DNA from: Lysinibacillus mangiferihumi
GTDB lineage: Bacteria; Bacillota; Bacilli; Bacillales_A; Planococcaceae
DNA: 64,000 nucleotides
Direction of reading: 5' to 3'
NCBI RefSeq assembly: GCF_003049665.1
Contig: NZ_PYWM01000020.1
Span: 1-64,000 of the forward strand
Shown here one piece after another: positions 2,039 to 46,440 of this stretch (its first letter is position 1; every line of letters begins with the position of its first letter). The notes beneath the pieces were generated by a model, which saw only the letters and a list, made by a program, of their open reading frames with translations, did no database searches and was not told the DNA's origin. The translations under genes were made by a program, and so were the position numbers.

Positions 2039-2059
2039 TTGTTTCACTCCTTATTAAAT

Positions 2060-2078
2060 TGTCCGCGTTTACGTCCAT
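2060..2078. repeat. attL: attL core of the prophage
   Basis: TGTCCGCGTTTACGTCCAT occurs here and again, identically, at 46382-46400; flanking bases differ on both sides. The copies bracket all phage genes, and the integrase gene ends 86 bp from the right copy. The core lies in the lysS leader, just upstream of its ribosome binding site. Confidence 0.92.
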
Positions 2079-2122
2079 CTAACACCGCGGTTTGTTAATG
2101 TATTTGATTGTAATCTGTTTCA

Positions 2123-2150
2123 AATATAACAATACTTAATAAGTATACAA
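2123..2150 (-). promoter_or_regulatory. probable phage-borne promoter reading into lysS
   Basis: On the minus strand TTGTAT (2150-2145), a 16-bp spacer, and TATATT (2128-2123) preceded by TG to give an extended -10. It is the best promoter I find between the prophage left-end genes and lysS. Because the prophage separates lysS from the promoter on the dusB side, this one probably drives lysS in the lysogen. Confidence 0.6.
2132..2146. promoter_or_regulatory. operator-like palindrome in the attL promoter
   Basis: ATACTTA-A-TAAGTAT is a perfect 15-bp dyad lying exactly between the -35 and -10 boxes of the promoter at 2123-2150, the classical place for a repressor site. I see no second copy at the cI/cro operator region, so the binding protein is unknown. 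Confidence 0.5.
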
Positions 2151-2192
2151 CAGAGTTTTGTTTTTTGCTGAAATTGATTGTAATTTGTTTAT

Positions 2193-2210
2193 GGCATCGT
2201 TTCGGCATCA
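2193..2210. repeat. arm-type integrase sites, left end
   Basis: Two GGCATC repeats 11 bp apart (GGCATCG at 2193, GGCATCA at 2204). A pair with the same 11-bp period and orientation lies inside the right end at 46310-46327. This is typical of the arm sites bound by the N-terminal domain of Tn916/phage-type tyrosine integrases. Confidence 0.6.
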
Positions 2211-2224
2211 TAATTTATTCATTA

Positions 2225-2253
2225 CTGACAACACTTACCAATATTGATACAAT
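2225..2253 (+). promoter_or_regulatory. promoter of the moron lipoprotein gene
   Basis: CTGACA (2225-2230), a 17-bp spacer and TACAAT (2248-2253), 38 bp before the lipoprotein start codon. It reads against the lytic genes, so the gene can be expressed in the lysogen. Confidence 0.7.
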
Positions 2254-2291
2254 TTAATAGAACATATACATGCAAAGGAGACTACTTTACA

Positions 2292-2936
2292 ATGAAGAAA
2301 ACATTAATTTTTAGCGCAGCACTTGTACTATCTCTAGGACTAGCTGGATGTGGTGCGGATTCATCTAAGGAAGAAAAACCGAAAGAGGAAACTCAAACAA
2401 CTGCATCTACTGGTGAAAAAGGTACAGCTAAAGAAGAGAAAAAAGAAGATGATAAAGCTCTTAAAAGTGGTACATATAAAGTTGGTACCGATTTAAAAGC
2501 AGGTGAATACTTAGTAAAAACAGATAGTCCGATTGGATATATCGAAGTTGCTAAAGACAGCACTGGTGCACTCGGAAGTATCATTTTTAATGCAACACCT
2601 ACACAAGGGTCTCATATTTATGTAACTGTACAAGACGGACAGTATTTTAAAGTTGATGGAAGTAAATTTTATTCTGTAGCAGATGCACCATCTGTTATTC
2701 CACAAGACGGTATTTATAAAGATGGTCAATTTAAAGTTGGTACAGATATCCCTGCTGGAGAATACAAATATTTTCTAGATAGCGAATCAGGTATAGGGTA
2801 CATTGAAGTTTCGAAGAATAGCAGTCATGACATAGGTACAATTGTTACGAATGAAACTCCTCAAGCTGATGGATATATCACAGTAACTGATGGTCAATAT
2901 TTAACGCTACAAGATGTATATATTAAAACAAAATAA
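2292..2936 (+). CDS. prophage-encoded lipoprotein with duplicated domain (moron)
   Basis: A 214-residue secreted lipoprotein. Residues 1-20 are a lipoprotein signal peptide with lipobox LAGC, so Cys20 should be lipidated and the protein anchored outside the membrane. A charged, low-complexity Lys/Glu linker follows (about 22-57), then two homologous domains (about 59-131 and 139-212) that share GxYKVGTDxxAGEY, IGYIEV and VxDGQY blocks. The start is the ATG at 2292, 11 nt after GGAG; an in-frame upstream extension lacks a ribosome site. It has its own promoter and terminator and faces opposite to the late genes, the usual layout of a lysogenic conversion gene. Binding partner and function are unknown. 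Confidence 0.85.
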   Translation: MKKTLIFSAALVLSLGLAGCGADSSKEEKPKEETQTTASTGEKGTAKEEKKEDDKALKSGTYKVGTDLKAGEYLVKTDSPIGYIEVAKDSTGALGSIIFNATPTQGSHIYVTVQDGQYFKVDGSKFYSVADAPSVIPQDGIYKDGQFKVGTDIPAGEYKYFLDSESGIGYIEVSKNSSHDIGTIVTNETPQADGYITVTDGQYLTLQDVYIKTK

Positions 2937-2955
2937 TTCTATTTATTATAGAAGG

Positions 2956-2987
2956 AAGCCACTCATTATTTTTTAAATGAGTGGCTT
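2956..2987. terminator. bidirectional terminator after the lipoprotein gene
   Basis: Perfect 12-bp stem AAGCCACTCATT / AATGAGTGGCTT with an 8-nt loop and a T-rich plus-strand tail. It can end the lipoprotein mRNA, and it may also end minus-strand late transcription coming from the YolD-like gene. Confidence 0.85.
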
Positions 2988-2993
2988 TATGTT

Positions 2994-44501: not shown

Positions 44502-44532
44502 AAAATTCGCCTTTTCTATGGTGAATTTTTTT
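44502..44532 (+). terminator. terminator after the repressor gene
   Basis: Stem AAATTCGCC / GGTGAATTT (one G-U) with an 8-nt loop and a seven-T tail (44526-44532). It partly uncouples the repressor gene from the ImmA-like gene and the integrase. Confidence 0.75.
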
Positions 44533-44573
44533 GTTAATATCAAAAGAACATATGTTTGCAAAAGAGGGATGTT

Positions 44574-45062
44574 ATGACTTTCGTTTATACTCATTCAGAA
44601 GATTACATTAGAGACCTTTATACCAGTATCGGTGTAACTAACCCAGAACATTTAGACATGAAAGTAATTGCGTCGCGACTTGGGTTTACTTTATTCTTAT
44701 CACCATATGATTCAACTAACATTGGTAATGTAATTTTTATAGATTCTAGATTATCCAAAGAGGAACAGTGGCAAGAATTTGGTCATGAACTAGGTCACGG
44801 GACTCTGCATTCTGGTAATCAAGCGAAATCCCCTCCTTTATTTAGAGAGTATCAAGAGTGGAAAGCTAACAATTTCATGTACCACGCATGTATTCCGACA
44901 TTTATGCTAAATAAAATGATTCTACCTTCAAATAAGGAAAAAGCTATTTTCTTAATACAGAAAACTTTTAATGTCGAATATTGGTTTGCTGAAAAGCGAT
45001 TAGAACAATATTTTAACAACCATTTAACATCAGTGAGTATAGATATTCAATTGTATATTTAA
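44574..45062 (+). CDS. ImmA/IrrE-family metallopeptidase
   Basis: A 162-residue peptidase (ATG 44574, MTFVYTHSED, AAGAGGGATG upstream). HELGH in WQEFGHELGHGTLHSG near residue 80 is the zinc site, and EYQEWKANNFMYHACIP the C-terminal Glu region (family IrrE/ImmA). In ICEBs1 and phi105-like elements ImmA cleaves the repressor ImmR when DNA damage or crowding signals occur. Here it probably does so for the CI-like repressor upstream. Confidence 0.87.
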   Translation: MTFVYTHSEDYIRDLYTSIGVTNPEHLDMKVIASRLGFTLFLSPYDSTNIGNVIFIDSRLSKEEQWQEFGHELGHGTLHSGNQAKSPPLFREYQEWKANNFMYHACIPTFMLNKMILPSNKEKAIFLIQKTFNVEYWFAEKRLEQYFNNHLTSVSIDIQLYI

Positions 45063-45095
45063 GTCGATTTAACTTTTATAATGGAGGGGAATTAC

Positions 45096-46295
45096 ATGGC
45101 TTCTATCCAAAAATATGAATTAAAAGACGGTAAGGAACGGTGGATGTATGTAATTGAAAACGGTACTAATCCCACTACTGGTAAAAGAGAACGAATTGTT
45201 AAAAGAGGTTTTTTAAAAGAAAAGGATGCTGTTAAGGCTGCTCGTGCTATGGAATATGAAATAGATAAATGGAATTTAGATTTTAAAAACAAAGCAACCT
45301 TTCATGACTTAGGAGAGGAGTGGTTTGAACGCTATACAAAAAGTGGTGTAAAAAATAGCACCATACGCTCAAAAGATTATCATTTAGAAAAGTTATATGA
45401 AGGTTTTGGGCATGTTAAGGTTCAAAATATCACACAAGATGTTTATCAAAAGTTTCTGTTTAATCTCCACGAGCAATTATCTTATAACACTTTGACAAAT
45501 GTTCACGGTACAGCTAAACAGGTATTTAAATATGCTCGTGAAAAGAAAATACTATTAGATGATCCAACTGAATTCACGATTGTTCCTAAGCGAATTAAAA
45601 CGGTCGAAGAGATTGAAAACGAGGCTATCACCGATACATACTTCGAAAAACATGAATTAAAGGCGTTTTTAGATGTTTGTTATCAGAGTGGTAAAATAGG
45701 TGACTATGTTTATTTCAACACGTTAGCATGGACGGGAATGCGTCCAGGAGAGGCATTAGCGTTAAAGTGGTCTGATATAGATTTTGAAGAAGGAACGATC
45801 AATATAACAAAGACTCTTTATAATCCAAAGAATAAATTTGATCAATTTGAACTTACTCCTCCTAAAACAGAGGGTTCAATTCGGAAAATAGATATTGAAG
45901 AGGAACTCATAGCTTTATTAATAGGGCATCAACTAAATCAAAAAAAGATAAAAACTATTTATGAGAAGAATTATAAAGATTTTGATTTTGTTTTCTCGCG
46001 CTTATATGGCGAATATATGGGTTATCCATGGTATTTACGAATTGTGAATAGACACATGAAATTAATTTTGAATAAAATGCCAAATTTCAATAAGCAACTA
46101 ACACCACATTCATTCCGACACACTCACACTTCTCTTTTAGCAGAGATTGATGTACCGTTAGAATTAATCATGGATCGATTAGGTCACGAAGATGAAGATA
46201 CAACTAAAAAAATATATCTTCATGTTACTCAAGACAGAAAAAAAGAAGCGTCAGAAAAATTCGGTAAATTGATGAGAGAACTTCAAAAAACATGA
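45096..46295 (+). CDS. int: tyrosine-type integrase
   Basis: A 399-residue site-specific recombinase. Start ATG 45096 (MASIQKYELKDGKERW, GGAGGGG upstream). An N-terminal arm-binding domain (AP2-like, 1-60), a SAM-like core-binding domain (about 66-150), and the catalytic domain: R216 (TGMRPGEAL), H338-x-x-R341 (HSFRH), H364 (LGHED) and nucleophile Y374. It catalyses integration and excision at the 19-bp att core 86 bp downstream. Confidence 0.95.
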   Translation: MASIQKYELKDGKERWMYVIENGTNPTTGKRERIVKRGFLKEKDAVKAARAMEYEIDKWNLDFKNKATFHDLGEEWFERYTKSGVKNSTIRSKDYHLEKLYEGFGHVKVQNITQDVYQKFLFNLHEQLSYNTLTNVHGTAKQVFKYAREKKILLDDPTEFTIVPKRIKTVEEIENEAITDTYFEKHELKAFLDVCYQSGKIGDYVYFNTLAWTGMRPGEALALKWSDIDFEEGTINITKTLYNPKNKFDQFELTPPKTEGSIRKIDIEEELIALLIGHQLNQKKIKTIYEKNYKDFDFVFSRLYGEYMGYPWYLRIVNRHMKLILNKMPNFNKQLTPHSFRHTHTSLLAEIDVPLELIMDRLGHEDEDTTKKIYLHVTQDRKKEASEKFGKLMRELQKT

Positions 46296-46309
46296 TTTTT
46301 TAGGGTTTC

Positions 46310-46327
46310 GGCATCATTTGGGCATCG
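46310..46327. repeat. arm-type integrase sites, right end
   Basis: GGCATCA (46310-46316) and GGCATCG (46321-46327), 11 bp apart, mirroring the pair at 2193-2210 in the same orientation. They lie between int and attR and are likely bound by the N-terminal domain of the integrase. Confidence 0.6.
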
Positions 46328-46339
46328 TTTTATAAATAC

Positions 46340-46380
46340 AAAGCCCGAAACCACTTGATAAATAAAGGATTTCGGGCTTT
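46340..46380 (+). terminator. integrase terminator
   Basis: Perfect 11-bp stem AAAGCCCGAAA / TTTCGGGCTTT with a 19-nt loop, directly before the attR core. It stops int transcription from entering the host dusB region. Confidence 0.8.
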
Positions 46381-46381
46381 A

Positions 46382-46400
46382 TGTCCGCGTTTACGTCCAT
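46382..46400. repeat. attR: attR core of the prophage
   Basis: Second exact copy of TGTCCGCGTTTACGTCCAT. Right of it the host sequence resumes with the presumed native lysS promoter and the dusB terminator. Confidence 0.92.
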
Positions 46401-46409
46401 AATATTTCT

Positions 46410-46440
46410 ATTGTACACAATTTTAAAGCTGTATTCATCT
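46410..46440 (-). promoter_or_regulatory. probable native lysS promoter, now separated from lysS
   Basis: On the minus strand TACAAT (46415-46410), preceded by TGTG, with only a weak -35 about 17-18 bp upstream. In an uninfected chromosome the att core would follow directly, and lysS would start about 45 bp downstream. It now reads into the right end of the prophage, against int. Confidence 0.55.

Follow-up and report, generated by a model that had tools for sequence, protein, structure and literature searches.

The window analysed here, a stretch of 64,000 nucleotides from Lysinibacillus mangiferihumi (contig NZ_PYWM01000020.1), carries a complete-looking tailed prophage of 44 kb (2079-46381) between lysS, encoding a class II lysyl-tRNA synthetase, and dusB, the gene next upstream of lysS in the native arrangement. 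Thirteen prophage open reading frames were scanned against one or both of Pfam and PHROGs, which identified a large terminase, a portal, a major head protein, a tape measure, an amidase endolysin and a tyrosine integrase, as well as a lysogeny set composed of a repressor-type regulator, an ImmA-like protease and Rha. The integrase domains together with the terminase, portal, head, tape measure and lysis genes identify the element as a tailed temperate phage using a tyrosine integrase. Two exact copies of the 19-bp core TGTCCGCGTTTACGTCCAT bound the prophage and are the only matches in the window at up to three mismatches, where 0.01 would be expected. ARAGORN finds no tRNA gene in the 64 kb. 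The attL copy of the core lies in the lysS leader, as a preliminary description of this DNA had claimed, and leaves only 21 bp of host DNA before the lysS start codon. The coordinates of all features are collected in Table 1.

lysS gives the only full-length match to a lysyl-tRNA synthetase in the 5.3-Mb genome of the window, and no second lysyl-tRNA synthetase was found there. Other LysS-like matches (25-41% identical) were taken, from their lengths and identity, as aspartyl- or asparaginyl-tRNA synthetases. PF01921 matched once and partially (28.7 bits, cut-off 27) in an open reading frame of 936 amino acids; because the same family also matches in 13 of 14 control genomes, we took this protein as another class I synthetase and did not accept it as a second lysyl-tRNA synthetase. 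As the sole lysyl-tRNA synthetase found, LysS is presumably essential. With a single enzyme and 21 bp of host DNA left in front of its gene, we are forced to infer that transcription of lysS in the lysogen must start inside the prophage, as the preliminary description had proposed. Rfam detects no known RNA leader in the window at gathering scores.

Table 1. Features of the lysS-prophage-dusB locus (positions in the window)
Feature	Position	Strand	Remarks
lysS, class II lysyl-tRNA synthetase	545..2038	-	Pfam class II synthetase; GTG start; gene and ribosome-binding site wholly beyond attL
attL core	2060..2078	-	exact repeat; 22-40 bp 5' of lysS GTG
attP arm	2079..2211	-	common to six distinct lysogens, 85-100% identical to that of the window; candidate home of a replacement promoter
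31-nt direct repeat	2090..2190 (copies 2090-2120, 2160-2190)	+	copies 81% identical; possible integrase or Xis sites
Weak promoter candidate TTGTAT-16-TATATT	2123..2150	-	matrix scan, score 8.6 (shuffle median 7.2, 95% point 10.3); TGn before second hexamer
Arm-type repeat GGCATCGTTT	2193..2202	+	three of four window matches lie within the two arms; 0.49 expected in all
Lipoprotein-like gene	2292..2936	+	faces away from lysS; PHROGs of unknown function, no Pfam match
Hairpin between yolD-like gene and arm	2955..2988	.	terminator call on + strand only; -18.2 kcal/mol in lysS direction
yolD-like gene	2994..3323	-	toward lysS; Pfam YolD 26.3 bits (cut-off 27.5), phrog_8703
Promoter-like TTGCTA-17-TATAAT	3363..3391	-	5' of yolD-like gene; GAACNNNNGTTC (3369-3380) in spacer
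Tyrosine integrase (int)	45096..46295	+	arm-binding, SAM-like and catalytic domains (Pfam, PHROGs); reads toward attR
Two GGCATCRTTT arm-type repeats	46310..46330 (46310-46319, 46321-46330)	+	attR side, beside int
Inverted repeat	46340..46380	.	perfect 11-bp; 1 bp inside attR core; between int and stranded native region
attR core	46382..46400	-	exact repeat
Invariant part of native lysS upstream region	46397..46424	-	28 bases; TACAAT at 46415-46410
Terminator-like site 3' of dusB	46544..46578	-	14-pair; -21.7 kcal/mol, z -6.3
dusB	46585..47628	-	Pfam Dus; native upstream neighbour of lysS

The native upstream region of lysS

The comparison covered 32 genomes of the genus including that of the window (G000), and the lysS leader is readable in 31 of them; in G011 the masked part lies inside lysS and leaves the leader readable, and in G013 masking begins just ahead of the leader. 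The readable genomes comprise two lysogens at this site, G000 and G027, and 29 phage-free relatives. The preliminary description had predicted that the box beyond attR would stand upstream of lysS in phage-free relatives, and the box, TGTGTACAATAGAAATATTATGG, was indeed found unaltered just 5' of lysS in 29 of 29, where 44-60 bp separate the beginning of its TACAAT from the start codon of lysS. The gap between the dusB stop and the lysS start spans 138 to 536 bp in these relatives, as measured within the genus only. TGTGTACAATAGAAATATTATGG occurs as a single copy per genome, at up to two mismatches, in 31 of the 32 genomes, the 32nd being masked there. Only in G000 and G027 are box and lysS separated, lying 42-44 kb apart with different mosaic prophages between them.

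In an alignment of 30 rows, the window included, 28 consecutive bases (AAATTGTGTACAATAGAAATATTATGGA) are invariant, and both the sequence upstream of them and the part between the core and the ribosome-binding site are more variable. Fifteen of the 29 phage-free relatives have the 19-bp core in exact form; in the others it is altered by changes, insertions or deletions. The lysS leader is supported as the attB site. In another genus, two genomes have a version of the box with two mismatches, located 65 bp upstream of the lysS match. By strict criteria a terminator-like site lies between dusB and the box in 14 of the 29 relatives, compared with 1 of 145 shuffles, and in the window dusB is followed by a terminator-like site beyond the phage, in agreement with the preliminary description; lysS therefore has reason to need a promoter of its own. 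From its conservation and its position, we conclude that the box region is the presumptive native promoter region of lysS, and the removal of this upstream region from lysS by the phage is well supported. The proposal of a native lysS promoter at this place held as far as a conserved upstream region displaced by the phage is concerned; promoter activity of this region is putative. The TACAAT stands where it had been reported; the reading of TGTG-TACAAT as an extended -10 element was rejected, with the TGn one base out of register. On joining the flanks, TACAAT would end 49 bp before the lysS start, close to the distance of about 45 bp given before.

The invariant stretch exceeds the usual length of a -10 element and contains a near-palindrome, ATTGTGTACAAT, a region that may bind a regulator. 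A regulon built on the near-palindrome was rejected, since its 13-mer ATTGTGTACAATA occurs only once in the genome of the window. In the lysogen, the stranded native region points into the phage, antisense to int. The inverted repeat between them, folded in the direction of transcripts from this region (-21.6 kcal/mol), may stop such transcripts and insulate int; the terminator scan of the attR side does not list it as a terminator.

The shared arm and transcription of lysS in lysogens

In G027, the second lysogen of the genus, two copies of the core are separated by 42.3 kb and the box is on the dusB side; the G027 prophage matches 16.7 of the 44.3 kb of the window prophage at the BLAST limit used. 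IMG/VR contains seven records with integrases 92-100% identical to that of the window. Five of them have the exact core with lysS adjoining and a 27-base arm pattern; no arm was found in the remaining two (L125 and L126), which may be fragments. Over the 3.6 kb compared, L131 shows 100% identity with the window, and it probably derives from the same or a near-identical strain. The attachment site is hence occupied by several different phages in six distinct lysogens, namely the window, G027, L128, L129, L130 and L132. A scan of 261 family genomes for the arm pattern, with up to three mismatches allowed, found it only in G000 and G027, and an integrase scan of wider genome contigs yielded a single partial match, in Pseudomonas, and no further lysogens. 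The attL-side stretch had no match in the phage and plasmid collections, from which records very near the genome of the window may be left out.

An arm of 131-137 bp is the only phage segment beside lysS common to all six lysogens. Beyond it nothing is common to all, and some pairs, such as the window and G027, share more. The GGCATCRTTT repeat in this attL-side arm recurs twice on the attR side, and the arm looks like the integrase-binding arm of attP. It also contains the weak promoter candidate TTGTAT-16-TATATT, present at 6 of 7 loci (4 of 5 distinct arms). The shared arm would be as consistent with a replacement promoter that is constitutively active as with regulation by the phage. Mimicry of the host region by the arm was considered on account of GAAACAGAT, which the native region and the arm both carry about equally far from the core, and was rejected because the score of their local alignment was equalled in 187 of 1000 shuffles and L129 lacks GAAACAGAT. 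The lipoprotein-like genes of G000 (window 2292-2936) and G027 (L139 218-916) have a common signal peptide region and differ in the rest, as if cargo had been exchanged behind a fixed start.

We consider the following mechanism probable. The tyrosine integrase would recombine the 19-bp attP core with its identical counterpart in the lysS 5' leader, inserting the phage at, or a few bases after, the presumed native transcription start. Integration would place the native promoter region and dusB beyond attR and the ribosome-binding site and lysS beyond attL, and lysS would then be transcribed outward from phage DNA, the likeliest source being a weak, constitutively active promoter within the 131-137-bp attP arm or immediately next to it. 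Upon excision, lysS would regain its native upstream region and neighbour. We infer the promoter activity of both the native region and the arm, as well as the two start sites. The simplest account is a promoter within the arm or next to it, because the arm is the only shared segment and hairpins in L128 and L130 stand beyond it. The L128 hairpin (-14 kcal/mol, equally good in 2 of 200 shuffles), which is followed by a U tract and faces lysS, ends the neighbouring gene at about 215 bp from the core, and a 20-pair hairpin of L130 lies about 170 bp from the core.

Several observations weigh against placing a promoter in the native region and in the arm. With a simple and approximate sigma-A matrix typed from recall, the native region, which has no good -35 element, reached at best 8.2, inside the shuffle range (median 7.5, 95% point 11.1). 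The arm candidate scored 8.6, likewise inside the range of shuffles (median about 7, 95% point about 10-11), and is absent from L129. In none of the five phages scanned does the lysS strand of the arm carry a sigma-70 site matching 9 of 12 positions; such sites occur just outside the arm in L128 (TTAACA-17-TAAAAT) and, further in, in L129 (TTGACA-16-TATAGT). Binding of the integrase alone would explain the conservation of the arm. The terminator scan calls no terminator in the lysS direction at the hairpins of L128, L130 or the window.

The better-looking sites of L128 and L129 stand outside the arm, and the start therefore need not be shared. Each phage could have a promoter of its own between its last gene and attL, with no common replacement promoter, in keeping with phage sequences that differ beyond the arm. 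We regard this as quite unlikely, given that the window, L130 and L132 have no such site between the last gene or hairpin and the core, and that sites of this kind occur at chance frequency in these stretches. The box conserved in the relatives could also be some element other than the lysS promoter, in which case the phage would remove less than is apparent; the lack of a good -35, a matrix score inside the shuffle range, and the length and near-palindrome of the invariant stretch are in favour of this. Against it, the box follows a terminator and directly precedes one gene in 29 of 29 relatives, its exact copy is single in every genome unmasked there, and with 21 bp of host DNA left lysS would need a start in phage DNA regardless. 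We consider this explanation very unlikely. It is extremely improbable that lysS is silent while the phage is integrated and is expressed upon transient excision. Excision would restore the native region, and excision of SpyCI islands reportedly works in this way at mutL (PMC3430984, PMC4689407). However, the prophage has an ordinary lysogeny set and the lysogens were assembled in integrated form; moreover, mutL is dispensable, which lysS should not be.

Read-through from the yolD-like unit, the outermost phage unit pointing toward lysS, offers another source, by which lysS would rise with DNA damage and induction. Its promoter-like sequence TTGCTA-17-TATAAT points at lysS, is the top-scoring site on the lysS strand in 2060-3450 (12.0) and contains GAACNNNNGTTC. 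We label this box LexA-type after GAAC-N4-GTTC, which we take to be the LexA site of Bacillus relatives. Five of six further lysS-side pieces (L129, L130, L131, L132 and L139) also have GAACNNNNGTTC where the yolD-like gene begins, and the sixth, L128, lacks it but ends before reaching the yolD-like gene. The recurrence in L131 adds nothing, this piece being the same as the window, and one GAACNNNNGTTC per 64-kb window is at chance level (0.64 expected). The path from the unit to lysS is interrupted by a hairpin and, in three phages (those of the window, G027 and L129), also by a gene of opposite orientation, and a repressed promoter alone would not supply an essential gene. SOS-coupled read-through into lysS is thus possible, but as the main source of lysS transcripts we think it unlikely. 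A broader scenario, which we judge distinctly unlikely, would put the sole lysyl-tRNA synthetase of the lysogen under phage-borne, partly SOS-responsive transcription, with charging capacity rising upon induction and with deletion of the attL end lethal, shielding the prophage from decay.

If transcription from a promoter in or beside the shared arm is correct, the locus would be a natural case of an essential translation gene that relies on prophage DNA, and one where several mosaic phages integrate. Part of the arm would then be indispensable for as long as the phage stays integrated, and curing by partial deletion from this end should fail.

Comparison with known systems

The integrase lineage itself has a different habit. 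Related integrases of the same bacterial family, 38-47% identical, have a GroEL C-terminus beside int in 19 of the 28 loci examined (L055-L082), after a pattern match in L080 was set aside as not GroEL-like. These groEL-site integrases insert at the 3' end of the gene, whereas the lysS phage inserts in the 5' leader. As in the window phage, GGCATCA repeats lie beside int in the two closest groEL-site relatives (L055 and L056). By its use of the lysS leader the integrase seems to have switched specificity, and the locus provides a system for asking how a lineage whose relatives sit mostly at the groEL 3' end accepted a promoter region as attB.

Promoter take-overs are already known at dispensable genes, and the gene concerned here encodes a vital enzyme. 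torS of Escherichia coli, the target of phage HK022, is dispensable, whereas lysS is presumably essential. Listings of open-licence papers yielded no description of a prophage inserted in the lysS leader. Three published systems come near. Integrative and conjugative elements of streptococci also target lysS, but they integrate in its 3' end and leave the promoter in place (PMC4701971), unlike the insertion in the 5' leader described here. Site-specific insertion of SpyCI islands at the mutL 5' end in Streptococcus pyogenes cuts transcription, and in SpyCIM5 a cryptic promoter of the element rescues mutL (PMC3430984). SpyCI decays or excises according to growth phase, in contrast to the intact-looking phages found here in the untranslated leader of an essential gene.

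The HK022 prophage inserts between torS and its native promoter, and a phage promoter near att drives torS (PMC6814406). The lysS prophages similarly lie between a host gene and its putative native promoter region, and in both cases several prophages use the site. In HK022, int reads toward torS; here, lysS is faced by the lysis end, with int at the opposite end of the prophage. Transcription of torS was measured (PMC6814406), and that of lysS from phage DNA is predicted from sequence. HK022 at torS is a close published precedent, from which the phages of the lysS leader differ in their presumably essential target and in the orientation of their lysis end.

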